DNA from: Bolinopsis microptera
Lineage: Eukaryota > Ctenophora > Tentaculata > Lobata > Bolinopsidae
Length of the DNA stretch: 64,000 nt
Assembly (NCBI RefSeq): GCF_026151205.1
Contig: NC_087079.1
Location: 10,034,635-10,098,634 of the forward strand
Direction of reading: 5' to 3'
Part shown: piece by piece, positions 10,190 to 61,956 of the stretch
Layout: every line of letters starts with the position of its first letter
How positions within the stretch are numbered: position 1 is the stretch's first letter
The notes under the pieces: generated by a model
Told to the model about the DNA's origin: nothing
What the model saw: the letters and a program-made list of their open reading frames with translations, nothing else
The model's database searches: none
Position numbers and translations under genes: made by a program

Positions 10190-26150
<15,961 letters not shown>

Positions 26151-32408: not shown

Positions 32409-33803
32409 AGAATGAGAAGAGAGTAGCAGAGGCTGAGACAATTCTAGAGGAACAGAAGAAAGTAGCAGAAGCTGAGAGAGTTCTAGAGTAACAGAAGAGA
32501 GTAGCAGAAGCTGAGAGAGTTCTAGAGGAGCAGGAGAAAGTAGCAGAAGCTGAGCGTATTCTAGAGGAACAGAAGAGAGTAGCAGAAGCTGAGCGTATTC
32601 TAGAGGAACAGAAGAGAGTAGCAGAAGCTGAGCGTATTCTAGAGGAACAGAAGAGAGTAGCAGAAGCTGAGAAAGTTCTAGAGGAGCAGGAGAAGGTAGC
32701 AGAAGCTGAGCGTATTCTAGAGGAGCAGAAGATAGTAGCAGAAGCTGAGCGTATTCTAGAGGAGCAGAAGATAGTAGCAGAAGCTGAGAGAGTTCTAGAG
32801 GAGCAGGAGAAGGTAGCAGAAGCTGAGAGAGTTCTATAGGAACAGAAGAGAGTAGCAGAAGCTGAGCGAGTTCTAGAGGAGCAGGAGAAGGTAGCAGAAG
32901 CTGAGCGTATTCTAGAGGAACAGAAGAGAGTAGCAGAAGCTGAGCGAGTTCTGGAGGAACAGAAGAGAGTAGCAGAAGCTGAGCGAGTTCTAGAGGAACA
33001 GAAGAGAGTAGCAGAAGCTGAGCGTATTCTAGAGGAACAGAAGAGAGTAGCAGAAGCTGAGAGAGTTCTAGAGGAGCAGGAGAAGGTAGCAGAAGCTGAG
33101 CGTATTCTAGAGGAACAGAAGAGAGTAGCAGAAGCTGAGAGAGTTCTAGAGGAACAGAAGAAGGTAGCAGAAGCTGAGAGAGTTCTAGAGGAGCAGGAGA
33201 AGGTAGCAGAAGCTGAGCGTATTCTAGAGGAACAGAAGAGAGTAGCAGAAGCTGAGAGAGTTCTAGAGGAACAGAAGAGAGTAGCAGAAGCTGAGCGTAT
33301 TCTAGAGGAACAGAAGAGAGTAGCAGAAGCTGAGAGGGTTCTAGAGGAACAGAAGAGAGTAGCAGAAGCTGAGCGTATTCTAGAGGAACAGAAGAGAGTA
33401 GCAGAAGCTGAGAGAGTTCTAGAGGAACAGAAGAGAGTAGCAGAAGCTGAGCGTATTCTAGAGGAACAGAAGAGAGTAGCAGAAGCTGAGAGGGTTCTAG
33501 AGGAACAGAAGAGAGTAGCAGAAGCTGAGCGTATTCTAGAGGAACAGAAGAGAGTAGCAGAAGCTGAGAGAGTTCTAGAGGAGCAGGAGAAGGTAGCAGA
33601 AGCTGAGCGTATTCTAGAGGAGCAGAAGAGAGTAGCAGAAGCTGAGAGAGTTCTAGAGGAGCAGAAGAGAGTAGCAGAAGCTGAGAGTGTTCTAGAGGAG
33701 CAGAAGAGAGGAGCAGAAGCTGAGAGAGTTCTAGAGGAGCAGAAGAGAGTAGCAGAAGCTGAGAGAGTTCTAGAAGAGCAGGAGAAGGTAGCAGAAGCTG
33801 AGG
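32409..33803 (+). repeat. 39-bp minisatellite with coiled-coil-type coding content on the plus strand
   Basis: About 36 tandem copies. Read on the plus strand each unit gives 13 residues, VAEAERILEEQKR or close variants (alternative RVLEEQKRVAEAE), an ideal charged helix. The plus frame has stops at 32489 (TAA) and 32837 (TAG) and no start Met, so it is not an intact gene. Because 39 is a multiple of 3, the opposite strand also shows long open frames (33860-32250 and 33831-32380; LLLLSS and SASATLFCSSR repeats), which are by-products. It may be a captured coiled-coil exon that expanded. A run of about 17 G ends the array at 33805. Confidence 0.75.
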
Positions 33804-35202: not shown

Positions 35203-38200
35203 ATGATTAGAGGACTCAGGAACTTACATCATGCCAAGAACCTTCAACAGATATCTGTATCTTTCAAGTACTTTTCAGCTAAGGTAAACATTACGATACA
35301 ACATGAACATGTTTAATGTTTTACACAGGCTGTTCTATATAATTGTCATCAATCAATGTGATTAAATATGTTACATCAAACTCTAACGATGCTATATAAC
35401 AGTACTGACACTGAATAGTATCATACTTCATTCAGACAGAGGGGAGGAAGATTTCAAAGTTGCTGATAGCAAATAGAGGAGAGATTGCGATACGAGTGAC
35501 CAGAGCTGCACATGAGCTTTCTCTAAAGTCTGTTGCCATTTATGGCACCGAGGACAGATATTCTATGCATAGAGCTGGGGTTAGCTCATCACTTTCTTGT
35601 ATAATTCCTTTACCTCACATATCTTAATCAATATTTTTATCATTCCATTAATCCAATACTATCTCACTATATAATTCATTTGCTTTCATTCCATATTATG
35701 GTTGTTAATTATGAAATCGTATCAATAATTAACACTACGATTTTTTGACTACAGGCAACAGAGTCGTACGAGATCCCGGGATATAAAGATAGTCCGGTGA
35801 GAGCATACCTTGACCAGGATGCTATTATAAAGATAGCCCTTCAAGCTGGAGCTGAGGCGATACATCCTGGTTATGGGTTTCTATCAGAAAATGCTGAATT
35901 TATTAAAAAGTGTGAGGACAGTGGGATTATATTTGTGGGACCGCCTTCTCATGTGGTGCAAGGTATGTTGCTTTGTTGGCACTATTTGTAAGGGAATCAA
36001 GTCTTGTGTCATCAACTTATTGATTAGCTGATAAAACCGATGAATAAGTTGGTACTAAATTGGTGGTACTAAATTTTTATAGAAAACCGACAGGATGAAA
36101 GATGTTTAGAATTCTCTAGATGTCTATGATTATTAAGACTACATTTCAATGTTCATGGTTTTGTGACAGAACTGTTTTATGCAGGTTTGGGAGACAAGAC
36201 TGCTGCACGTGACACAGCAATAGCTGCGGGACTTCCGGTCATTCCTGGATCTGATAACACGGTTAGCTCCCTGTTACTACAGTATATTTCTGATCGACTT
36301 ATCGAGCTTATAAGAAACGAAATTTTAATAATTTTAAAACCTTACCAGATTTTAATCCAATACTATGATATCATAGTGAAATTAAACTATTAGTTTATGG
36401 TCCATACAGGTGGCAAATCAACCTTTAGTACGGACGTTGTGAGTAGTGAAAGTAATATATAGTTTATTAGGTTCCTATTGGGTAAATTATTTGAAGAAAC
36501 TGTGAAAATTTCGGATAAGGCAAGAGGTAAGAAACATAAAACTATTATCTGCTTCTTGATCTATTTAATTTAATTCTATTTCAAACAAAGAGAAACACTC
36601 ACTTGGCGGGCAAACGATCCGTTTCATGATATTATATAGAAAACAATACCAATTGCACTGAGGATTGGTATTGTTTTCTACATAATATCATATAATATAA
36701 CGGATCGTTTGCCCGCCAATTTGAGTCATTCTGTTTGTTTGAAATATAATGCTCCTGCTTGATTGCAGTTGAGCATTCTTTAGGAAACCAAGCAACAACT
36801 TATCATTAATTTAATTCTATATAGATACATAAGGTGAAGCTCATTCAAGTTTCTCGCTTTAGATAATTTGTAAAATTTGATTACAAACACTTCCAAAAAT
36901 TATTATTATTTAATTAAAGAATTTAACAAATATTCTAATTCCCGCTAACTCCCACTAATAACTAAGTGTTTGAAAAAGGAAGTCCCTCTCTACACAGGCA
37001 CGTATCTGCAGTACACAGTCGTTTTGATTTTGTGGTCTTTGGTCCAAATCCAGGATGCTTCCCTTGAGATATCTCCTACAAAACCTCTCCAGGGTTTAAC
37101 TCCGTCGTGTTTTCTTATCATATCTCCTTCTTCCCAAGCCTCAAAATCAACTTCAAATCCAGGTTTTGCCCAGTCTTCTTCTTCCTCTTGAGTACATAAC
37201 CACGTGTCGTCAGTTAACACTACAATCTCTCCGCTCTCATCATGTAGTGAAGCAAGGATTCCGGCGACTACTCCATTGTCAACACATTTGATACCAATAA
37301 CTTCAAAGTTGGACGGGACAGGAATTTTAGATTCTTTATGCCACTGGGTCAGTCCTTCTGCTTTCTGTTCCACACCATCCACAAATACAGTCATCAAATT
37401 GTCACACGTAGCTCTGAGGGTGTAGGTTTGCACCTGCACATGCACTGGTTCGTAGCGACAGTAAACAGTTGTTCGGATCTTGTGGTCTTTGGTCCAGATC
37501 CAATTTGCGTTCCTAGAGATTTGCCCTATGAACGTCCAAGGACTAGCCCCATGCTTACCAATGACGTCTCCTTCCTCCCATACTACAGAATCAGAAGCAA
37601 ATCCAGGTTCTACCCACCCTTTCTCTGCCTCTTGTGTACAGGTCCAGGACTCGTCTGTGACCAATATCTCGTCTCCTGCTTCATCGTGTACAGAAGCTAG
37701 GATTCCGGGGATTACTCCTACGTCTACACATTTGATACCAATTACTTTAAAGTTGGACGGGACAGGGATTTTAGATTCTTTATGCCACTGGGTCAGTCCT
37801 TCTGCTTTCTGTTCCACTCCATCCACAAATACAGTCATCAAATTGTCACACGTAGCTCTCAGAGTATAGGTCTCATCGCTTGCTGCCAGAAGTGCAATAG
37901 CTGCCAAAGAAAAGAGTACTAGCCACGTCATCATTACCAAGTGAGGAGGATCAAGAAATAAGATGAGGATTTTACTGAAGTGTTTATAAGAGAATCAATA
38001 GATATACTTCCAGAAGAGTAATCTATTTTCAGGCCTAGCCACTGACCAGATGGTTGGTAAGTTGTCAGTGCTTCAGTGTGATTGTATTAACTTCAAAGTA
38101 AATGATCAAAGCGGTCTATCATTGGGAAACTCGAGGATAATTACTGTAATGTTAATTTCCGGGGATTTGTAAAGAAGGCTAATGAAATTGATTGCTAGGT

Positions 38201-41200: not shown

Positions 41201-44200
41201 ATATCGTAACCGGGTGTTACACAACATACCACCTTATACATACCTAATACCTACTTACTATATACCTAATACATACCTACTACATACCTAATACATACCT
41301 AATACATACCTAATACATACCTAATACATACCTAATACATACCTAATACATACCTAATACATACCTAATACATACCTAATACATACCTAATACATACCTA
41401 ATACATACTTTATATATACCTAATACAGTACATACTATATACCTAATACATACCTAATACATACCTAATACATACCTAATACATACCTAATACATACCTA
41501 ATACATACCTAATACATACATACTATATACCTAATACATACCTAATACGTACCTAATACATACCTAATACATACATACTATATACCTAATACATACCTAA
41601 TACGTACCTAATACATACCTAATACATACCTAATACATACTTTATATATACCTAATACATACCTATTACCTAATACATACCTAATACATACCTAATACAT
41701 ACCTAATACATACCTAATACATACCTAATACATAACTTACATAACACCTAACTAATAATACCTGCAGGAGTCCAGGCGGGTACGGAGTGAGACTAGACAG
41801 AGGGAGTGGGTACAGTGGATCTGTTATCACACCCTACTACGATTCTCTGCTCGCTAAGTGTATCACTACTTCCTCCTCATTTGACAGTTAGTTATGTTCT
41901 TGTTTGATTGAAGTTAAAAGAAGATAAAAAAGGGCAGGTTAAGCTTTTACCAGGGAATAAGGATATTTGATATGTTTCTTGGCCGATGAAGCATATCAAA
42001 CGCTACCTTTTTTCAGTACTGAAGCTCGGTTATAAAATGCTATAAGCTGTATCCCTCCACTAGGCTATAATTTCAATTTCCCTAGGGTATTTTTTGTAAG
42101 GTTTTTCGAAAACGACGTACTTAATAAGGCAGTTATTGTAGGAGTTCTACCTTTAACAATGTTTCACTCTATCAGGAGCTGTTGCCAAGATGGTACAGGC
42201 CCTGTCAGATTTCAGAGTGAGAGGTGTAAAGACTAACATTGCATTCTTGGAGCGAGTAATGCATCACCCTGACTTCATATCTGGAAACAGTCAGTTTGTT
42301 TATTTGTTTATTTGTTAATTCTATAGATACGATAGATATTTTCCTGATGGGCTTATCAGTGGCGTAACGTTGCCTGTTGGCGCCCCCTGCCGAAAAAGCG
42401 CCCCCCTGTTGGCGCCCCCTCCCCTTTTGGTGCCCCTCCCTAAAATTGAACAAAATAGGTGATTTTAGAGAATACGCCGGTAAAATCTCTAAAAAAGTGT
42501 GTATCTAGAGCAAAACGCGCAGTTTTGCTAGTACTTTAGTTAAGTTTTCGAAATTGTCCCACATTCAAACGACGATTTGGCGCCCCCCTAAGACGGCGCC
42601 CCCCTGCACAGCGGGGTCAGCAGGGCCTTTCGTTACGCCACTGGGGCTTATCTATCTATTTTACAACAACTTGTTGCCCGAGAATTAAGTAAATCTAACC
42701 TTATCCATTCCTTCAGTCGACACCTCGTTTATCGAGAAAGAGAGCGACTACTTGCTCGCTCCCTGGGACGACAAGTCAGGAATGTTAAACACCTTGAGAT
42801 ACCTGAGTGAGGTAATGGTGAACGGCACTGACATTCCGGGTCTCCAAGGAAAACCAGGAGCAAACCCAATACCTTTAGCTCCTGTGGAGGAGGTGTATCA
42901 GAGGGGGTACAAACAGGTGCGAAATAGGGTTGCCATTATCGGTACAAAATTTTTTATCGCGATAATCGATAATTTTTTCAAAATTATCGCGATAATATCG
43001 GTTATCGGCGATAAATTTGGCAATATAATTGAAGTAATATTTATATGCACTCTGCATACTTGAATTATGCTCATATGCTATGTTACATCTTGTGCTGATT
43101 GCTTTGTTAAAGAATCAGTTGCAATATTGCCCTTTTATTTAACAAGCCCAAATTTCATAGACAAAATATGTTATTGCTTTTAGCAAACAATTTTTAAAAA
43201 GAAATCAGCACATGCACGACGTATTTCTTTGATAGTGTCAGTTTCCTGCCTGTTAGCAGTGAACAGACCTATCTCCCGAGCAAGGGTATCTGTCCTTGCT
43301 ACCGTAGTCAAATCACTGCCCTAATGTAGGTCTGATAATTCTTTTGTCAGCGGGATAGGATTGGAATCTGGTATCTGAAATTGTGGGAGTCGCCTGTGAG
43401 TCCTGAGGAACAATCGTCGAACTACATGCGAAGCTCAATCGCTGTTTGTCTCTTTCTGCTTAAACAACCGCTGGTGCAGAGACTTAGAGTTACGTATCAA
43501 GGTTGACTTTGTGATAACTCTGTATTCTTGTCCTACATCTTCATCTAGAATACCGGGGTCCGAGTAGAACTTTACCAGCGATACGAAGTGAAGGCCCTTT
43601 CTCTTGGCATATCGTGTACGTAGCCTATCGAGAAGGGTTCGAGAAAGTGGCGAGTCTATCTCAGATCTCTTCTAGCTTGCTGTCAATAAACTAAATAATC
43701 ACTTCTGCTTGAGCGAGCATGCTGTCTCTTTTACACAAAAACTCAGTTACAATCTTGAACGGTGCGAGAGTCTTGGTAATGTCTTTTAAAGCTAACTCAG
43801 TCTCTTCTACATCCAGTTTTAGATTGCCTAGCTCCAAGTCATCTAAAATTCCGTGCACTGCATCAGTTATCCGGTCATATCTCTCCAACATACTGCACAG
43901 CGAGCTCCAACGGGTTTAGTAGTCTCGTTGCAGTCTGCAAGTACCTTTTCGTGCTTCAACAAACAACAATAACGAGGTCTACAACCTCCAAGTAGACTGC
44001 AAATTATGCTAGCACTGGGTTTTAACTTTACAAACAGAGAAATGGATTCGAAAAATATGTTAAATGTTGGCCATCTTACCCTAATAAAAATTTGTTGATT
44101 ATCGCGATAATTCTCGAAAATTATCGCGATAATCGATAACGATTTTTGGGAAATTATCGCCGATAATTATCGGCCGATAATATCGGTTGGCAACCCTAGT

Positions 44201-47200
44201 GCGAAACATGTCCTCTAAATTCGGGCTTATTGTGCGGACATTTAATCTGTGATTTTACATGTATCTCTATATGGAATAATAATCCTTACAACGGTTTCTA
44301 CAGATTACAGACTGCACATTTCTGTGCTGCATGTCATCTTGCGATGTACATTGTATGTGTATTTCTCGAGCTTGATTAATTACCAGGTTGTAGTGTTGGC
44401 AGCTAGGAATCCGGCAATAATGATTACAAAATATGCTTGGCTTATTTTTAATTTTACAAGAATCGCTTTGGATAGAATGAGGCTTTAGCTGACTACAATT
44501 GATTAAAAGTAGAGTAGAGCAGTTTTGAACAGCTATATAAGATAAGTGTAGAGTTTAACCTGTACTCTATCAGGTGTTAAATAAGAGTAGAGTTTAAGCC
44601 CGTACTCTATCAGGTGCTAGATAAGTGTAGAGTTTGACCCGTACACTATCAGGTGCTAGATAAGTGTAGAGTTTGACCCGTACTCTATCAGGTGCTAGAT
44701 AAGTGTAGAGTTTAAGCCCTTACTCTATCAGGTGCTAGATAAGAGTAGAGTTTAAGCCCGTACTCTATCAGGTGCTAGATAAGTGTAGAGTTTAACCCGT
44801 ACTCTATCAGGTGCTAGATAAGTGTAGAGTTTGACTCGTACTCTATCAGGTGCTAGATAAGTGTAGAGTTTGACCCGTACTCTATCAGGTGCTAGATAAG
44901 TGTAGAGTTTGACCCGTACTCTATCAGGTGCTAGATAAGTGTAGAGTTTGACCCGTACTCTATCAGGTGCTAGATAAGTGTAGAGTTTGACCCGTACTTT
45001 ATCAGTTGCTAGATAAGTGTAGAGTTTGACCCGTACTCTATCAGGTGCTAGATAAATGTAGAGTTTAACCCGTACTCTATCAGGTGCTAGATAAGTGTAG
45101 AGTTTGACCCGTACTCTATCAGGTGCTAGATAAGTGTAGAGTTTAACCCGTACTCTATCAGGTGCTAGATAAGTGTAGAGTTTGACTCGTACTCTATCAG
45201 GTGCTAGATAAGTGTAGAGTTTGACCCGTACTCTATCAGGTGCTAGATAAGAGTAGAGTTTAAGCCCGTACTCTATCAGGTGCTAGATAAGTGTAGAGTT
45301 TGACCCGTACTCTATCAGGTGCTAGATAAGAGTAGAGTTTGACCCGTACTCTATCAGGTGCTAGATAAGAGTAGAGTTTGACCCGTACTCTATCAGGTGC
45401 TAGATAAGTGTAGAGTTTGACCCGTACTCTACCAGGTGCTAGATAAGGGTAGAGTTTAAGCCCGTACTCTATCAGGTGCTAGATAAGTGTAGAGTTTGAC
45501 CCGTACTCTATCAGGTGCTAGATAAGAGTAGAGTTTGACCCGTACTCTATCAGGTGCTAGATAAGTGTAGAGTTTAACCCGTACTCTATCAGGTGCTAGA
45601 TAAGTGTAGAGTTTGACTCGTACTCTATCAGGTGCTAGATAAGTGTAGAGTTTGACCCGTACTCTATCAGGTGCTAGATAGGTGTAGAGTTTGACCCGTA
45701 CTCTATCAGGTGCTAGATAAGTGTAGAGTTTGACCCGTACTCTATCAGGTGCTAGATAAGAGTAGAGTTTAAGCCCGTACTCTATCAGGTGCTAGATAAG
45801 TGTAGAGTTTGACCCGTACTCTATCAGGTGCTAGATAAGAGTAGAGTTTGACCCGTACTCTATCAGGTGCTAGATAAGTGTAGAGTTTGACCCGTACTCT
45901 ATCAGGTGCTAGATAAGAGTAGAGTTTAAGCCCGTACTCTATCAGGTGCTAGATAAGTGTAGAGTTTGACCCGTACTCTATCAGGTGCTAGATAAGTGTA
46001 GAGTTTGACCCGTACTCTATCAGGTGCTAGATAAGAGTAGAGTTTGACCCGTACTCTATCAGGTGCTAGATAAGAGTAGAGTTTGACCCGTACTCTATCA
46101 GGTGCTAGATAAGTGTAGAGTTTAACCCGTACTCTATCAGGTGCTAGATAAGTGTAGAGTTTGACTCGTACTCTATCAGGTGCTAGATAAGTGTAGAGTT
46201 TGACCCGTACTCTATCAGGTGCTAGATAGGTGTAGAGTTTGACCCGTACTCTATCAGGTGCTAGATAAGTGTAGAGTTTGACTCGTATTCTATCAGGTGC
46301 TAGATAAGTGTAGAGTTTGACCCGTACTCTATTAGGTGCTAGATAGGTGTAGAGTTTGACCCGTACTCTATCAGGTGCTACATAAGTGTAGAGTTTGACC
46401 CGTACTCTATCAGGTGCTAGATAAGTGTAGAGTTTGACCCGTACTCTATCAGGTGCTAGATAAGAGTAGAGTTTGACCCGTACTCTATCAGGTGCTAGAT
46501 AAGAGTAGAGTTTGACCCGTACTCTATCAGGTGCTAGATAAGTGTAGAGTTTGACCCGTACTCTATCAGGTGCTAGATAAGAGTAGAGTTTAAGCCCGTA
46601 CTCTATCAGGTGCTAGATAAGTGTAGAGTTTGACCCGTACTCTATCAGGTGCTAGATAAGAGTAGAGTTTGACCCGTACTCTATCAGGTGCTAGATGAGT
46701 GTAGAGTTTGACCCGTACTCTATCAGGTGCTAGATAGGTGTAGAGTTTGACCCGTACTCTATCAGGTGCTAGATAAGTGTAGAGTTTGACCCGTACTCTA
46801 TCAGGTGCTAGATAAGTGTAGAGTTTGACCCGTACTCTATCAGGTGCTAGATAAGTGTAGAGTTTGACCCGTACTCTATCAGGTGCTAGATAAGAGTAGA
46901 GTTTAAGCCCGTACTCTATCAGGTGCTAGATAAGTGTAGAGTTTGACCCGTACTCTATCAGGTGCTAGATAAGAGTAGAGTTTGACCCGTACTCTATCAG
47001 GTGCTAGATAAGAGTAGAGTTTGACCCGTACTCTATCAGGTGCTAGATAAGTGTAGAGTTTGACCCGTACTCTACCAGGTGCTAGATAAGGGTAGAGTTT
47101 AAGCCCGTACTCTATCAGGTGCTAGATAAGTGTAGAGTTTGACCCGTACTCTATCAGGTGCTAGATAAGAGTAGAGTTTGACCCGTACTCTATCAGGTGC

Positions 47201-50200
47201 TAGATAAGTGTAGAGTTTAACCCGTACTCTATCAGGTGCTAGATAAGTGTAGAGTTTGACTCGTACTCTATCAGGTGCTAGATAAGTGTAGAGTTTGACC
47301 CGTACTCTATCAGGTGCTAGATAGGTGTAGAGTTTGACCCGTACTCTATCAGGTGATAGATAAGTGTAGAGTTTGACCCGTACTCTATCAGGTGCTAGAT
47401 GAGTGTAGAGGTTGACCCGTACTCTATCAGGTGCTGGATAAGTGTAGAGTTTGACCCGTATTCTATCAGGTGCTAGATAAGAGTAGAGTTTGACCCGTAC
47501 TCTATCAGCTGCTAGATAAGAGTAGAGTTTGACCCGTACTCTATCAGGTGCTAGATAAGTGTAGAGTTTGACCCGTACTCTATCAGGTGCTAGATAAGAG
47601 TAGAGTTTAAGCCCGTACTCTATCAGGTGCTAGATAAGTGTAGAGTTTGACCCGTACTCTATCAGGTGCTAGATAAGAGTAGAGTTTGACCCGTACTCTA
47701 TCAGGTGCTAGATAAGAGTAGAGTTTAAGCCCGTACTCTATCAGGTGCTAGATAAGAGTAGAGTTTGACCCGTACTCTATCAGGTGCTAGATAAGAGTAG
47801 AGTTTGACCCGTACTCTATCAGGTGCTAGATAAGTGTAGAGTTTGACCCGTACTCTATCAGGTGCTAGATAAGAGTAGAGTTTAAGCCCGTACTCTATCA
47901 GGTGCTAGATAAGTGTAGAGTTTGACCCGTACTCTATCAGGTGCTAGATAAGAGTAGAGTTTGACCCGTACTCTATCAGGTGCTAGATAAATGTAGAGTT
48001 TAACCCGTACTCTATCAGGTGCTAGATAAGTGTAGAGTTTGACTCGTACTCTATCAGGTGCTAAATAAGTGTAGAGTTTGACCCGTACTCTATCAGGTGC
48101 TAGATAGGTGTAGAGTTTGACCCGTACTCTATTAGGTGCTAGATAAGTGTAGAGTTTGACTCGTACTCTATCAGGTGCTAAATAAGTGTAGAGTTTGACC
48201 CGTACTCTATCAGGTGCTAGATAGGTGTAGAGTTTGACCCGTACTCTATCAGGTGCTGGATAAGTGTAGAGTTTGACCCGTACTCTATCAGGTGCTAGAT
48301 AAGTGTAGAGTTTGACCCGTACTCTATCAGGTGCTAGATAAGAGTAGAGTTTAAGCCCGTACTCTATCAGGTGCTAGATAAGTGTAGAGTTTGACCCGTA
48401 CTCTACCAGGTGCTAGATAAGTGTAGAGTTTAACCCGTACTCTATCAGGTGCTAGATAAGTCTAGAGTTTGACCTGTACTCTATCAGGTGCTGGATGAAG
48501 GAGGACCGGACGCACTGGCTCGCGCAGTCCGACAGAAAAGCGGTCTGCTACTGACGGACACGACGTGGCGAGACGCGCATCAGAGTTCACTCATGACCCG
48601 CATGAGAACACACGACCTCTGCAAGGTTTGTTAGATTATTTATAAATAAACTATTTGTAAACAGTATAAACAGTGATAAGCAGGTGTAGAAGTTGAGAAT
48701 AAGCTTCCGTGTAGAGGAATAATAATAGGAATAGCAGAGAATCAGAGAACATCCGAGAGTTTACTATACCAGCAAATTTCAAGAGATAAAAGCAACAGCG
48801 TAGAATTGAGAGTCAACTAGCAAATTTCAAAAAATAAAAATTATAGCGTAGAATTGGATAACTTTCGACATGCTATTTGCTACTACATGATCTCAATAAT
48901 TAAAATGATTGGAGAATGGTCGAGAATGTACTACCAACGTAGCGGTATGGTTAATTTGTGATTTTCATTGACAAATGTGCCTTACAATGTAGTCAGGGTT
49001 ATATTAAGTAATTTATCCTCGAATTAGCCTAATTATGCTGTTGTACTATAATTATAATGAAAACACTAATGCTTCAAAGTTCAATGGACCATTGGTGCTT
49101 TTATTAATTTATTATGAAACCAACAAATTATCATAAGATTTACAATCGTGTGATGTCGTCTTATGTGATATTTAATATTATCATACGATGCATGGTGTGA
49201 TAGTGAATATTTATCTAAGAAGGTGGTTTGAAGTGCTGGTCCTTGTGCTGAAAGGTTACGTAGTACTCACTACTCAACCTACTCGACAGATAAAAGGCCG
49301 GTATTGGCAGTTCTACTATTAGAAGTATATACAGTTTTATCAATATTATAATCAGAATATATACAGTTTTATCAATATCATCCACTTTTCACTGGTATTT
49401 CTAATATGTTGACATAATTTTCTGATGAAGTTAGATGATTTAATCATGCTAGTGCCTTGAATCTGTAGAATGCTGATTGCTGGTTCGTAATCTCACTAAA
49501 TTGTACCTGATTCGGACGGGTTATAAACAAGTCAGAAGTTGAACTACCGTTTCCACAATAATTATCACGATGCATAACACGTTTAACTTCTGCAAATAAT
49601 GCCATTATATTATGGGGTATGTAATCCGAACACGAACTACCGCTCCCACAATATAGCAGTTATGATCACCAAATCACGAATAACCTCTACAAAATGCTGA
49701 TGTTGTGTGTGCGTGTGGCAAGGGGAGTCTTGATTATATTATGGTGAACATTTCCGGATTACTAGAGAATAAAGATCCGTTATGTAAACAAAAGTAATGT
49801 TAACAAAAGTCACATACTAACTACGTGTATTCGTAACCTGTTTGTAGCCCAAAATATGTCCTAGAAAATGGAGATTTTTTCATGATCAAGAATGTGCCAG
49901 ATCTTCCATATTCTGTTGGAAACAACTAAACCTGTATATAACTTTTTAGTTATATAAGAGCTATGGTTTGGGCACAGACAATATTTGTATCATGTTCTCG
50001 TATTTTGAAAGACTCGCTAAATTTGCCATCATGAACTACTACAGGCATATCCTATGTCAAACGTATTTAAAAAATCACATTACCAATACCAGCCACAGAA
50101 TATAATGTAGGATAATAAGATGATGCCACAGGACACGATCCTGTGGCAAGATGGGGTACAGTTTGAAATGCTCTGTTTCAATCTCATTATCAATCTCATT

Positions 50201-53200
50201 ATCAGGTACATATCTCATTAAGTGTTTCAGGTGAAGACTGTACTACCATGTTTCAATCTGACAATGTGTTTCAGGCTGCTCCTATGACTGCTAAGTACAT
50301 GAACAATCTCTTCTCTATCGAGATGTGGGGAGGCGCTACATTCGACGTGGCTTTAAGGTTTGTCTTCAAATTATTATGTACACTATCATATATAATTACC
50401 ATAATCAATAATATACAGTGAAATATCAATTTCCGGACTCAGGACCTGTTGATTCCGGACATTACTGGACCATCTTTTAGTTGTCTGGCTAATCAGATAA
50501 CCACACATCAGGTTTCTACACGAATGCCCTTGGAGGAGATTAGAAAGACTAAGAGAGGCTGTACCCAACATTCCTTTCCAGATGTTGCTGAGAGGAGCAA
50601 ATGGAGTTGGATACACTTCATACCCTGACAACGTGGTAGGTTACTGACAAGTTACCATGACAACGTAGTAGGTTACTGACAAGTTACCCTGACAAAATGG
50701 TAGGTTACTGACAAGTTACCCTGACAACGTAGTAGGTTACTGACAAGTTACCCTGACAACGTAGTAGGTTACTGACAAGTTACCCTGACAAAATGGTAGG
50801 TTACTGACAAGTTACCCTGACAACGTGGTAAGTTACTGACAAGTTACCCTGACAACGTGGTTGATTTACTAACGCAATGTCTTCCAAATTTCATGTAGTT
50901 TGTTGAGCCATATCGTGCTGTGTCATCTTGTAAGTTTAAATCAATTTTTTTATCCTTATCTTGTTTTATCCTTTTAGGTGTACGAGTTTGTAAAGCAGTC
51001 CTCGGAGGCCGGAGTTGATATCTTCAGAGTGTTTGACTCCCTCAACTTCGTGGACAATATGCTGCTAGGTAGACTTTCAACTTCAGACCTTGTTATATTG
51101 CCCAGAATCACGTGATATTTCTAATTGAACCTCCAGTATAAGACAGTATGTTCTTCTTCCTCCAGTTTTTTAAACGGGATAATGGACCTATCCATTTTAA
51201 TCATAGTATTGTACTGCTATTGTAACATAAACCATGGTATTGTAACATAAACCATGGTATTGTAACATAAACCATGGTATTGTAACATAAACCATGGTAT
51301 TGTACCACTAATAATAGTACATTTAACCAGGGATAGATGCAGTGAGACAAACTAAAGGAGTAGCAGAGGCTGCTATCTGTTACACAGGGGACCTATCAGC
51401 TACTAATGGTGGAGGCAAATACAACATTGATTACTATCTTAACTTAGCAAAGGTACAACATTGATTACTATCTTAACTTGGCTAAGGTATGGTCACAGTT
51501 GTGCAGCTTAATAGTTAATATTGCTGTGTGACAGCAAGGTCCTCTTTAACAATCGTGAAATCGTAATGATATATTGTTGGAGACTTTGGAATCTGTCTGA
51601 CGAATTAAAATCTAGTCAAATGCTTTTATCGTCGTTGTACAATATCTTTGCATATCTATTCCTCTGTAGATTAAGTATATCTTACTAACTACTGCCTACT
51701 CAATATCTCAGGTATTTGTTGAAGCAGGAGCCCACATTCTCTGTGTAAAAGATATGGCAGGGTTACTGAAACCGGCTGCGGCGACTACACTAATCTCAGC
51801 GCTTCGAGCGGAGTTCCCGGATACGCCGATACACGTGCACACACACGACACTGCAGGTATACATTATACATTGTACATCCTGTATACACTATACATCCTG
51901 TTCAGGGTCATAGTTAATTGTATTTGTATACACGGTGGTTATGTCAATAAGCTCAGACTAAACTGAATTATAAAAAGGTTTCAGGTTAAATTTCCTTGTT
52001 ATGTTCGTTCTAGTTATTAAAGTTTGTCGCAAGTTTAATTGTAGATATTACATGCACATGTTGATGTAAGATCAGGCGATTATTTATGATAGATATTTTC
52101 AAGTTCAACAGTTATTCTCAGTCCGATTATATGCATAATAATATGGTAATGTTTGTAATCCAGAATATCCATACATTCAACAAAGACTCTCTTTTAACCT
52201 GGAACAATTTTACTTGCAAGGATCACGATTCTTCCAGTTCGCCTGTCATAGACTAAATTTGAATTTCTGTGGTGATATTTATCGAATTTTCGTTACAAAG
52301 AAATCAATTTATTAATTAACAGCATTTTATCAAATTAAGGAAACGACTAAATCACACTATAGTGTCACCAATAAAACGAAGGGGAAATATGAACTAGAAA
52401 ACTCCAATTTTGGTAGATCTATAAACGGTTTTAAATCGGTAATAAAAATTCATCATTCTTTCGCAACTACTTGTGGTCACTGTACTGAAAGTTTTCTGTT
52501 TTATAGGATTGATGATATGACGATGAATAATATTTATTTAGGAACTCCCGCGCCTTGGGCTGATTACGACAATTGTAATTTGTATGTAAAAAGGTGGGCA
52601 TCGACAATACTTCCGCGCGCGCGCGATTGGACGTGACGCGCGATGCAATGCTTCATTATAATATAATTTATATTATGATATTTTCGGCGACATATCAGAT
52701 CAGCTGTTCAATCTTTCAGTCCGTTCTTGCAAACTTGTTAAGGCAGATTCGTCCGAGTGCCGATGTTTTACCTGATGTCTCCACAGATATACAGTTGTAT
52801 TTAATTGAGTCTATAGCCACCACTGTACCAAAGTATCGGCCATCTCCAGATATAAATCTATGTATTTACTATTTCTCGCTTCCTTGTGTTATTTTTCTCA
52901 GATTATTAAAGTTGAAGTCTCAGTTCACTGATTCTAAAAATGTAAGGCCCTATTATGCATTTTATCACTCATCTTGATCTTATACCACGATAAGTCAGCA
53001 CAACGTCGTTTAGTAATGTTAAATCCCAAACTTTTGTGAAGAGTCAAGAGTGAACAACTCCCGAGATTCGAGAATAACATACACTGAGCGAATTTTCTGA
53101 GAACTGGCATGAAAGCAAATTTATAATTCGTGATTCATTTCGGTATTAATCAACTTGAAATTATCATGTTAACATCTAAAATCCCAAATATTTCAATGTG

Positions 53201-59200: not shown

Positions 59201-61956
59201 CGACTTTATATTACTACCTCATACTACGAGGCGTTAGCGGAGTCGTTGGATTGCATTATCATATCATTTTGTCATTACCAAAATATCATTCTGCGCTATT
59301 ACTTTTGCCTAACAAAAGCGTCGTTCCTCACGAGGAATAGCATCAATTAGCACAACAGACAATTACTATTTTAGTGAAGTAAGCTTGTAATATTGTACCA
59401 CAAGTGTAGTCGGCTGCCTCCTTTCTGCTTGAGAAGAATAAGCTTAGTAATACTTAATAGTAAACATTTGACAAATGGCACTAATGATCAACAAATGGGT
59501 AATGAAAGGAAAAAACATACTTTTTCTCAGATACCTATTGACTGACTAAAAGGTGAACACAAGCAAGAGAAACTGATTTAAGTTTTAAGATTTTTTTTTC
59601 GCCACCACTTTAAAGCATGACCGTCAGCCTTTGTACCCCCTTAAATATATAATGTTTAGTTTAGATTCATCAGAAGTCGTTTGGCAGGTTTATTTATAGA
59701 ATTTCATAGTTCAAAATATTATAATTTGATGTTGAAGATGACAGGAATACATAATACCTATAAAGAGATTTTTACGCAATTTGCACAAAAAAGCGCTTGC
59801 ACTGATAAATTAAATTCGGTTAAAAAACCCAAATTCGTCGATTTCGTGCGACCGATTTCATTCTCGGCATCATTTCGCGTTTGAATACGGTAATTCAAAT
59901 TGATATCATTTCCTTTTGTTTGAAAAAAGGAGACATTGTGCATTGGTGACAGTCCACTATAACCAATATATAATATTCTGGTTTTAGAATAGTGAATAAC
60001 AATTCGGCACATAAAAGAAGAATTTGTATAGATAAACAGGCAAAAGGAACGTTTCTATTTCAGATAGAAACTGCAGTGCGGGATTAATCCGATAGACAGA
60101 CCCGAGTTCGCAGTGTTATCACGTGACAGTGCCGTCACAAACAATTGAATAAATCATTAGTGAAAAAAGTGTATCTATTTTAGATGAGTCGGCCTGCAGT
60201 ATGAGTCATGTGAATAAAATTACTAATTAATGGTGTAAAATCGATTTAAAAAGTTGTCACTTTGTCAAAAAACAAGTTTTAAAACGGTTAACTTGATGAC
60301 GTCATCCATTGGCAATGATAGTGTCAAATCATTTTTATAGATAAAGTAAACTGAAGTCTAAATAATTATCTTCAAGATCTGTGGCCGGAAATGGCTGTAT
60401 CTTTTATACTTATATATGCACAATTTCAGATCTCTAACTCAATTTTAACATGGTTTTCAAGGCACCTGAATATGGAGATTTTTGGTTTTATACCGAATTT
60501 CGTATAACAGTGCTGGCGCGTATTTTACGCAAATTTCTTGAAAACCTCTAAATAACTATTTCTTATTCCTGTCAAAGCTTGTTATTTGTCTGATATTAGC
60601 TGGCTTTAACTTGGTATCTTCACTCATAATCCCGGAGAGATATATAAAGCAAAGGGCTTGACATGTTGTAAATCGTAAAATTCATACCCAACAAAATAAA
60701 ATGATAAGCGTTCAATAAAAATCTGCTTCCCAAGAGAACGTCCAATACATCAACAATCAACATATAAAAAAAGTAAAAACACGTGTCTATATGCAAAAGG
60801 AAATCTATAATTGAAAAAAGGGAAATCAACCTGGCGGCTTCTTTCTAATCCGCGACAGTCCTGCCAACAATGATCATTGTGATTGAGCACGTACTACAAA
60901 TTCGGCTGGTCCAATTTAATCAAAACTAATTGTAATGATCTTTTCTATTAATAATCTTCATTGTAAAGCACCGAACATCATCTGAGCAATAAAGCATGGT
61001 CTGAATACGATATAACATCCGGTGAAATTGTAGCTTAACTTCCATCTGTGCACGTGTTCATCCAACGATGGCCAATATTTGTCAATAATCAAGAAACAAA
61101 GCTTGAAGTTAAACTACACGTACCGCAGGCATGCCACCGGAATATACGGGTAACTGTCACTTGTCAGCCAAGATCTGCCACAAATTATTTTGGTGGAAGC
61201 CATCAAATTCAATCATGGTTTGAAATCATTATTGCAGTTTTCTACACAGAAGTGTCCAGAAAAAGGTGGTTTAAATAGTCAAAGTGGTAAAGGTGGTTAA
61301 CACAACATTATCACCCAGGTACCGGAGTTGCGAGTATGGTGGCATGTTATCAGGCTGGAGCTGATATAGTCGACGTCGCAACGGATGCTATGTCTGGGGT
61401 AACCTCGCAACCTAGCATGGGGGCTGTGCTTAACTCCCTGCCTGCCATAAACTCTGACTTTGACCAGGAGAGACTGTTCGAGATTAATAATTATTGGGAA
61501 CAGGTGGGTTCTACTTTGTGAAAGTTACATTTTAGTGTCATAATTATTTTATAAGCTGTTGTAACGACGATTGATTATTTAGTTGGGTTAGTTGGATAGA
61601 GTCTGTTGTGTTTTATCATTTCAGTTGTATATCTGTATCAGCTGTAATGATTCCAAAAACGACCGTAACATAAGCCCCCTACAAGAAGTTTTATCAAACG
61701 TTTTACCGAACCTGTTTTATCTTGTAACGGAAGAATTCTTTGCTTTCAGATAAACCTGCACAGATTTGTTGTAACCCAGAATAACCTAGAATAACCCAGA
61801 ATAACCCAGAATTACCCAGAATTACCCAGAATAACCCAGATTTTATCTCAGGTTCGACAGCTTTACAGGTGCTTTGACCCAGGCACCCAGGCTACCAACA
61901 CTGAGGTCTATAAACACGAGATTCCGGGGGGCCAGTATACCAACATGCTCTTCCAG
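35203..61956 (+). CDS. PC: Pyruvate carboxylase, mitochondrial; 21 exons, 3' end beyond window
   Basis: Exons 35203-35283, 35436-35579, 35755-35962, 36185-36261, 38509-38640, 38866-38962, 39219-39317, 39516-39655, 40635-40736, 40894-40994, 41768-41886, 42176-42289, 42717-42916, 48488-48625, 50275-50357, 50512-50635, 50978-51068, 51331-51452, 51712-51856, 61319-61503, 61852-61956 join in frame (869 codons). Exon 1 is a basic, Ser-rich presumed mitochondrial presequence. Biotin carboxylase: [24 protein letters not shown], the ATP-grasp loop HGGGGRGMR (193-201), [32 protein letters not shown]. Carboxyltransferase: [10 protein letters not shown] (562-571), MLLRGAN, carbamyl-Lys737 in CVKDMAG, HVHTHD (765-770), [11 protein letters not shown]. 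The rest of the carboxyltransferase and the biotin carrier domain must lie right of 64000. The enzyme makes oxaloacetate from pyruvate in the mitochondrial matrix. Introns 4 and 19 hold antisense genes; introns 13, 16 and 18 hold junction-derived tandem repeats. Confidence 0.97.
36579..36744. mobile_element. Foldback element, 166 bp, in pyruvate carboxylase intron 4
   Basis: Almost the whole piece is an inverted repeat: TATTTCAAACAAA outside, TTGGCGGGCAAACGATCCGT and AGAAAACAATACCAAT inside, with a short centre near 36655. Arms differ by small gaps. Confidence 0.8.
36990..37940 (-). CDS. Secreted protein with two tandem about 145-aa repeats, single exon, nested antisense in PC intron 4
   Basis: 316 codons from ATG at 37940 to a TAG at 36990. 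A signal peptide is clear: [20 protein letters not shown] followed by SDET. Two repeats follow, residues 24-163 and 173-314, each beginning [18 protein letters not shown] and ending [10 protein letters not shown] or [10 protein letters not shown], then TTVYCRY. Each has four Cys (C31, C71, C101, C161 in repeat 1), probably two disulfides, and several conserved Trp. The [11 protein letters not shown] pattern resembles beta-sandwich, lectin-like modules of marine invertebrates, but I cannot name the family. The first 48 residues of the two repeats are identical except one (Lys/Glu), while the rest has diverged. There is no intron, and a TATA box lies upstream. A broken copy is at 28268-29545. 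Confidence 0.85.
   Translation of the reverse strand: MVMMTWLVLFSLAAIALLAASDETYTLRATCDNLMTVFVDGVEQKAEGLTQWHKESKIPVPSNFKVIGIKCVDVGVIPGILASVHDEAGDEILVTDESWTCTQEAEKGWVEPGFASDSVVWEEGDVIGKHGASPWTFIGQISRNANWIWTKDHKIRTTVYCRYEPVHVQVQTYTLRATCDNLMTVFVDGVEQKAEGLTQWHKESKIPVPSNFEVIGIKCVDNGVVAGILASLHDESGEIVVLTDDTWLCTQEEEEDWAKPGFEVDFEAWEEGDMIRKHDGVKPWRGFVGDISREASWIWTKDHKIKTTVYCRYVPV
37983..37988 (-). promoter_or_regulatory. Candidate TATA box of the nested secreted-protein gene
   Basis: The minus strand reads CTTATAAAC 43 bases before the ATG at 37940. The spacing would leave a 5' UTR of only about 15-20 bases. Confidence 0.4.
41211..41755 (+). repeat. 11-bp minisatellite TAATACATACC just upstream of PC exon 11
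   Basis: About 45 copies of TAATACATACC with a few variant blocks (TTTATATATACC, TAATACGTACC). It ends about 12 bases before the acceptor CCTGCAG at 41761-41767, so it supplies most of the upstream intron sequence. Confidence 0.9.
42357..42643. mobile_element. Non-autonomous hAT element, 287 bp, in PC intron 12
   Basis: Inverted ends CAGTGGCGTAACG. Perfect 8-bp target duplication GGGCTTAT at 42349-42356 and 42644-42651. C-rich interior (GGCGCCCCC repeats), no frame. A fragment of the same family is at 7474-7520. Confidence 0.9.
42925..44198 (-). mobile_element. hAT transposon with decayed transposase, inserted 8 bp after the PC exon 13 donor
   Basis: Ends TAGGGTTGCC and GGCAACCCTA with subterminal TATCGCGATAAT and CCGATAAT palindromes. 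8-bp target duplication GTGCGAAA at 42917-42924 and 44199-44206. The minus strand holds transposase-like pieces: 43891-43691 ([20 protein letters not shown], then [12 protein letters not shown]), and further down about 43690-43430 a second frame with [20 protein letters not shown] and a stop after KLEEI. The pieces are in different frames and short, so the element is dead. Confidence 0.85.
44541..48487 (+). repeat. About 100-copy 39/40-bp satellite built from the PC exon 14 acceptor junction
   Basis: Units run GTGCTAGATAAGTGTAGAG, TTTGACCCGT, ACTCTATCAG. The last copy ends in CTCTATCAG at 48487 and exon 14 follows as GTGCTGGATGAAG, so the first 10-12 bases of each unit copy the exon start and the last 7 copy the splice acceptor. 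Common variants are TTTAAGCCCG (40-bp units), TTTAACCCG, TTTGACTCG, AAGAGTAGAG and ATAGGTG. They recur in similar order, indicating higher-order repeats. The array fills most of intron 13. Read in the exon frame each unit hits TGA or TAA after seven codons. Confidence 0.95.
48626..50274. other. PC intron 14: no gene seen
   Basis: AT-rich intron sequence with no recognisable coding, RNA or repeat structure. Confidence 0.45.
50621..50876 (+). repeat. 32-bp tandem repeat built from the PC exon 16 donor junction, 8 copies
   Basis: The unit starts TACCCTGACAACGTGGTAGG and continues TTACTGACAAGT. Copy 1 straddles the real exon 16 end (GACAACGTG at 50635, then GTAGGT). Seven intronic copies follow, with AACGTAG, AAAATGG or AACGTGG at the junction. 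Copy 7 has GTGGTAAGT, a better donor consensus than the real GTAGGT. All copies read GTA GGT TAC TGA (or AGT TAC TGA), a stop, if the exon were extended. Confidence 0.92.
51218..51303 (+). repeat. 20-bp tandem repeat, 4 copies, upstream of PC exon 18
   Basis: Unit TATTGTAACATAAACCATGG, nearly identical copies, ending 27 bases before exon 18 (51331). Confidence 0.85.
51420..51487 (+). repeat. 34-bp duplication of the PC exon 18 end with its donor
   Basis: Copy 1 (51420-51453) is the last 33 bases of exon 18 plus the first donor base; copy 2 (51454-51487) follows at once in the intron and ends GCTAAGG, then TATGG. They differ at two bases, TTA/TTG and GCA/GCT, both synonymous in the exon frame. 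Using the second donor would put TGA four codons past the first. Confidence 0.9.
51857..53613. other. PC intron 19, left of the nested gene: no gene seen
   Basis: AT-rich, with a short GCGCGC patch near 52614-52642. The 3' UTR of the nested receptor should lie in 53000-53613. Confidence 0.45.
53614..59089 (-). CDS. Adhesion GPCR with F-type-lectin-like domain and GCC2/GCC3 cysteine-rich repeats, nested antisense in PC intron 19
   Basis: Exons 58996-59089 (ATG 59089), 57976-58425, 57582-57647, 57382-57456, 57073-57246, 56814-56966, 56542-56694, 56254-56406, 55993-56142, 55620-55763, 53614-55469 join in frame, 1155 aa. All introns are phase 1. Exon 1 is a signal peptide. Exon 2 (32-181) resembles a discoidin/F-type lectin module ([29 protein letters not shown]). 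Exons 3-4 are a Ser/Thr/Pro stalk. Exons 5-10 each encode one about 50-aa Cys-rich repeat ([35 protein letters not shown]) of the GCC2/GCC3 kind. Exon 11 has a GAIN-like region, a GPS (C780 to C809, H811-T812-T813), a tethered SFAILMSPT stretch and seven TM helices from about 832, with the class B2 CWVE in loop 2, then a short Ser/Thr cytoplasmic tail. It is a surface receptor; ligand unknown. Confidence 0.93.
59090..61318. other. Upstream of the receptor, PC intron 19 right part: no gene seen
   Basis: Should contain the receptor promoter. No coding sequence or clear TATA element recognised. Confidence 0.4.
61774..61840 (+). repeat. 10-bp tandem repeat ATAACCCAGA upstream of PC exon 21
   Basis: About seven copies (variants ATTACCCAGA, ATAACCTAGA), ending 11 bases before the acceptor TCTCAG at 61846-61851. 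Each copy carries a CCCAG. Confidence 0.85.

Follow-up and report, generated by a model that had tools for sequence, protein, structure and literature searches.

The 64,000-bp stretch of the ctenophore Bolinopsis microptera analyzed here (contig NC_087079.1; hereafter the window, with positions counted from its first base) contains a pyruvate carboxylase gene in which most of one intron is occupied by about 100 tandem copies of the junction between that intron and the following exon. We interpret this 39/40-bp array as a "mirage", that is, a minisatellite derived from the gene's own intron-exon junction and carried passively, and we give this reading a probability of about 0.85. The evidence consists of the anatomy of the array, its presence at a single locus, a start of the exon in keeping with the protein family, and additional junction-spanning arrays, both elsewhere in this gene and in genes of other families. 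The kind of array is already known; what is new is its length, the organism, and the donor-biased spread of such arrays across genes.

The array and the parts of the gene that frame it are the following, in window coordinates:
42717 to 42916, forward strand: upstream exon (start read by eye), ending in ..RGYKQ in phase 0 and followed by the donor CAG|GTGCGA at 42917.
42925 to 44198 (42917 to 44206 with its direct repeats), forward strand: element of 1274 bp, bounded by 11-bp terminal inverted repeats TAGGGTTGCCA and flanked by 8-bp direct repeats GTGCGAAA.
44540 to 48496, forward strand: tandem array of 39/40-bp units in which the genuine 3' splice junction is preceded by 100 decoys, delimited by Tandem Repeats Finder (TRF), unit splitting and assembly searches.
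48488 to 48625, forward strand: pyruvate carboxylase exon, with the genuine acceptor CTCTATCAG at 48479 to 48487.

Using the human protein as the query, exon matches to pyruvate carboxylase were found spread over positions 35439 to 61956, and the exon at 48488-48625, taken by itself, finds pyruvate carboxylase chains in the PDB with a best E value of 4.3e-12, which confirms it as a real pyruvate carboxylase exon. The reading frame is unbroken across the genuine junction, from ..RGYKQ in phase 0 into the exon at 48488, and the intron that harbors the array extends from 42917 to 48487 (5,571 bp). The 1274-bp element, which we take to be hAT-like, begins 8 bp into this intron, its left direct repeat carrying the donor itself, and its end is separated from the start of the array by 341 bp.

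TRF reported, within the window, a period of 39, 101.1 copies and 95% matches for 44540-48496. A unit-by-unit split at CAG|GTG gave 101 boundaries of this type between 44574 and 48488, corresponding to 100 decoys and the genuine exon start; 86 of the units measure 39 bp and the other 14 measure 40 bp. These values confirm the array of about 100 copies described by an earlier sequence-only reading of the window. The last 9 bp of the array are exon sequence, the exon (GTGCTGGAT) and the unit (GTGCTAGAT) differing by one mismatch, and this overlap supports the earlier proposal that the 3' splice junction, together with a few exon bases, was expanded in tandem; the overlap was correctly seen, but its length had been overestimated at 10-12 bases. 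As in mirages, the unit spans the exon-intron boundary, with 9 bp of exon plus the acceptor. The CAG|GT motif is intact in 96 of the 100 decoys and at the genuine site, so that the decoys show the AG|GT juxtaposition of a recursive splice site, again as proposed. Read in the frame of the exon, every decoy (100/100) reaches a stop after 7 codons. The prediction that use of a decoy would add VLDKCRV and then a stop was thus right about the stop, whereas the exact peptide is encoded by only 54 of the 100 decoys, the others specifying VLDKSRV (28) or one of ten near variants (18).

Pattern searches covered the whole 264.65-Mb assembly, in which stretches of N would escape detection. Allowing up to 2 mismatches, a 21-base pattern for the junction half of the unit gave 100 matches, the same number as in the window; a 24-base pattern for the other half, with up to 3 mismatches allowed, gave 87. 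All of these matches lie inside the array, and outside it neither half was found anywhere in the searchable assembly. The sequence-only reading had held that the same unit lying elsewhere in related species without the exon segment would speak against a junction origin, and no such unit was found when it was looked for in this assembly. A second copy of the pyruvate carboxylase gene, in which an ancestral junction free of the array might have been read, was likewise not found in the assembly. Given that both halves of the unit are confined to the array and that no second gene copy was found, the unit was most likely made locally. The copies are also not dispersed, as expected of a mirage, whose repeats come from the gene's own junction.

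The start of the exon was compared with 80 prokaryotic relatives, fetched out of 146 found. The alignment is gapless from four residues before to six residues after the junction in 71 of these 80 bacterial sequences, with a gap near the junction in the remaining 9. A residue is present at codons 1 and 2 in all 80, leucine occupies codon 2 in 62 and glutamate codon 4 in 44; aspartate at codon 3, one of the three codons shared with the unit, is poorly conserved (23/80). From this comparison the exon start seems ancestral, and the exon would have preceded the array. The opposite order, in which a satellite from elsewhere, for instance one carried by a transposon, landed at the acceptor and either matched the exon by chance or supplied its start, could draw on the gaps in the 9 relatives and on the presence in the same intron of a transposon-like element with 8-bp direct repeats, though that element ends 341 bp before the array. 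The private distribution of both unit halves largely refutes this alternative, the exon start fits the family, and a dispersed satellite or transposon as the source was rejected because copies at several places did not turn up in the two assembly pattern searches, in which stretches of N would be missed. We consider it extremely unlikely.

According to the mirage reading, the array would have started as a tandem duplication across the pyruvate carboxylase intron-exon junction and would have grown to about 100 copies by further duplication, including that of blocks of many units. A 13-unit block (CECKKLMCKFGCN in unit-type code) is present twice within the array, which points to unequal exchange and fits the length instability of mirages. 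A different history would make the intron itself the product of a tandem duplication of an AGGT-bearing exon piece, with the array as its remnant. Such intron gain was modeled by Rogers and is described for a potato RdRp gene (PMC4974935). The likeness lies in the duplicated DNA carrying AG|GT, and CAGGTGC is present at either end of the intron. However, the copies here occupy a single end of the intron, which contains other sequence as well: 1,623 bp lie outside the array, of which 341 bp, on the upstream-exon side, are left after subtracting the 1274-bp element together with one of its two direct repeats. Moreover, inspection of the unit by eye showed nothing that clearly copies the upstream exon's end. 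An origin of the intron by this route is highly improbable.

To evaluate how a gene with 100 decoy acceptors might be spliced, we scored the sites with a position matrix derived from the exons sampled below (262 acceptors, 255 donors). The genuine acceptor falls at the 25th percentile of the sample and 94 of the 100 decoys score as high or higher, so a stronger genuine acceptor was rejected as the selector. RNA hairpins that hide the decoys were not convincing either, the folds of three stretches giving z values of -0.04, -0.80 and -1.38. By the measures used, the genuine acceptor differs from the decoys neither in its site score nor in local structure. In the arrays counted below the genuine site touches the exon body, which is partly a consequence of calling exons from protein matches. 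The spliceosome would take the acceptor nearest to the exon body, by exon definition or through exonic enhancers, and would mostly ignore the deeper decoys; a transcript joined at a decoy would meet the stop and be lost, or could be respliced through the weak donor CAG|GTGCTA. Most likely, then, the array is a passive minisatellite, tolerated as splicing picks the site beside the exon body.

A functional role would require the array to be kept either as a poison switch, decoy joining lowering the output of pyruvate carboxylase, or as a ratchet, recursive splicing aiding removal of the intron. The retention of CAG|GT at nearly all decoys, the stop behind every one of them and their scores would suit such a role, and recursive sites are themselves made of an AG directly followed by GT, the decoys resembling in this respect the ratchet points of Drosophila and vertebrates. 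They differ from those sites in forming about 100 tandem copies and in the weak donor they regenerate. That donor, CAGGTGCTA, lies at the 18th percentile of the 255 donors, although some called donors are weaker, whereas the real donor at 42917 lies at the 62nd. Nor are the junction positions clearly spared: among the 86 units of 39 bp, 4 of 65 substitutions fall in the 5 junction positions against about 8 expected if they were evenly spread, numbers too small to tell. Since 75 of the 262 sampled exons begin with GT, AG|GT at a copied junction is ordinary, and the folding of the three stretches is unremarkable. We regard a maintained switch or ratchet as very unlikely and retain the passive minisatellite as the preferred reading.

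The pyruvate carboxylase gene holds two more junction arrays, both at donors and both delimited by TRF:
50621 to 50861, forward strand: second junction array, 32 bp x 7.5 copies, the unit comprising the last 15 bp of an exon (TACCCTGACAACGTG) and the donor GTAGGT.
51420 to 51489, forward strand: third junction array, 34 bp x 2.1 copies, the unit comprising the last 33 bp of an exon and the donor.
Two other arrays in this gene, an 11-bp unit x 46 (41231-41734) and a 10-bp unit x 6.9 (61772-61840), each stop shortly before another pyruvate carboxylase acceptor and do not enter the exon.

Junction arrays were also sought in other gene families of the assembly. Set 1 comprised myosin, chaperonin and kinesin exons plus 20 pyruvate carboxylase exons (189 exons, 181 acceptors, 171 donors), and set 2 comprised dynein and DEAD-helicase exons (93 exons, 82 acceptors, 84 donors), analyzed with the thresholds of set 1. 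Family matches numbered 109 for kinesin, 35 for chaperonin, 73 for dynein, 52 for DEAD and 73 for myosin, and were used only where the surrounding DNA had been fetched; homeodomain and kinase matches were left out of every count. Exon edges were placed by script at the best-scoring AG or GT near the family match, except for the 20 exons of pyruvate carboxylase, which were entered manually. Arrays ending 5-35 bp inside the exon were found at 14 of 517 boundaries (11 donors and 3 acceptors), one wrong acceptor being excluded. Outside the pyruvate carboxylase gene they occur at 11 of 477 boundaries (235 donors and 242 acceptors), among them 9 of the 235 donors. Examples are listed here:
kinesin donor array, 33 bp x 52 copies.
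kinesin acceptor array, 21 bp x 24 copies.
another kinesin donor array, 53 bp x 8.1 copies.
dynein donor array, 32 bp x 5.1 copies.
DEAD donor array, 43 bp x 2.9 copies.
myosin donor array, 31 bp x 4.1 copies, spotted by eye and outside the counted exons.

The exon parts of the example arrays read as the expected protein, and at least three of the junction arrays lie in what we take to be known motifs, namely NTSLSELG of kinesin and VATP and TPTR of the DEAD-box proteins. Searched against the whole assembly, the kinesin donor unit (52 matches) and the kinesin acceptor unit (13 matches) are each confined to their own locus. Three of the 13 matches of the acceptor unit form a second cluster about 1 kb upstream of the others, ahead of the same exon (G000:C13:6735250-6736842). 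The acceptor excluded from the quoted counts was a myosin call (C3:9157378), dropped as wrong after reading; a dynein acceptor call (C12:1011231), where the array lay 80 bp inside the putative exon, also looked wrong and lies beyond the counted range.

The frequency of these arrays was expressed as the number of exonward array ends per base, comparing the exon side at 5-35 bp from the junction with the intron at 15-200 bp, cut at the next known exon. The 5-35 bp range was chosen after the overlaps of set 1 had been seen and was then applied unchanged to set 2. Two array thresholds were fixed before set 2 and a third was added later, the middle one (score 100, identity 85, period 15) serving as the main threshold. 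All P values take the arrays as independent, though some share a gene, and the numbers are small. Excluding the pyruvate carboxylase gene, all boundaries together gave 11 ends in 14,310 bp against 10 in 48,849 bp of intron, a 3.8-fold excess (p 0.0028). Among donors alone, 9 ends fall within 7,050 bp on the exon side and 3 within 24,422 bp of intron (ratio 10.4, p 0.00016); among acceptors, 2 fall within 7,260 bp and 7 within 24,427 bp (ratio 1.0). For set 2 alone the donors showed 5 exon-side ends against 1 in the intron (p 0.0033), the split between donors and acceptors having first been noticed in set 1. Ends clustering at the junction itself (-15 to +5), short of 5 bp into the exon, numbered 4 at donors and 2 at acceptors with the middle threshold, again outside the pyruvate carboxylase gene.

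For the class as a whole, tandem duplication thus seems to occur, or to be retained, more frequently where it includes the donor junction than in other parts of the intron. It is possible, although we would put it at somewhat less than an even chance, that donors of B. microptera are birthplaces of minisatellites, duplications across the 5' splice site arising or being kept several to tens of times as often as those in the rest of the intron (best estimate tenfold), that this affects a few percent of donors, and that long arrays such as the one of about 100 copies are extreme outcomes of this junction duplication. Several results weigh against the mirage reading, including the gaps and the variable codon 3 at the exon start mentioned above. 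The excess at the level of the class is confined to donors, with none at acceptors, where the ratio was 0.7 at the loosest and 1.7 at the strictest threshold. The array in question is itself an acceptor case, a type found no more often than expected from intronic arrays. The donor ratio also depends on the threshold, from 3.9 (p 0.0058) at the loosest to 27.7 (p 4.6e-05) at the strictest. Since the acceptor class shows no excess, the array at 44540-48496 needs no special hotspot.

The closest known counterparts are the mirages of lancelets, tandem repeats spanning exon-intron boundaries in Adh3 and the globins BflGb6 and BflGb9, which reportedly leave regular splicing undisturbed (PMC3087553), with PGBD5 and troponin C as additional cases (PMC3902484). 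They share with the present array minisatellite-like copies across the boundary, at donor or acceptor, many of them with AG/GT signals (PMC3087553, PMC3902484). They differ in length, the BflGb6 haplotypes having 6 and 3 units against about 100 copies here, in the organism, a ctenophore in our case, and in the rate over several gene families, with its donor bias, obtained here. Minisatellites at exon-intron boundaries, some linked to novel introns, have also been described in human genes of segmental duplications, with units of about 30 bp in tandem at the boundary (PMC2812944). They average 4 repeats, were found by comparison of paralogs, and are treated mainly as altering exons or introns, not as copies of a junction still in use (PMC2812944). 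In view of the lancelet and human reports (PMC3087553, PMC3902484, PMC2812944), the statement of the sequence-only reading that it knew of no described satellite of this kind does not hold. The available material on the intronic minisatellites of earthworm metallothionein describes no boundary-spanning array. Within the literature on such arrays as far as it was accessible, no earlier report of a donor-biased rate across gene families was found, and literature searches of the same extent turned up no report of junction arrays in ctenophores, an absence that is weak evidence.

Mirages, known mainly from single lancelet genes, are thus extended to several gene families of a far more distant animal. 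The donor excess in two gene sets suggests that tandem duplication at splice junctions is general, feeding intron growth and perhaps intron gain. In addition, 100 decoys that score as high as the real site constitute a natural test of site choice by the spliceosome, in which the matrix score cannot decide.

Apart from the junction arrays, two neighboring myosin exon matches at G000:C3:9154012-9154485 align to one and the same domain region (105-167 and 102-167) and are perhaps alternative exons. In the window, TRF also reported a 39-bp array of 35.6 copies with 89% matches (32415-33802), which is A/G-rich and perhaps a coding repeat, and one 10-bp unit, GTCGGGGTTT, occurs in two separate arrays about 3.4 kb apart (15964-16097 and 19497-19640).

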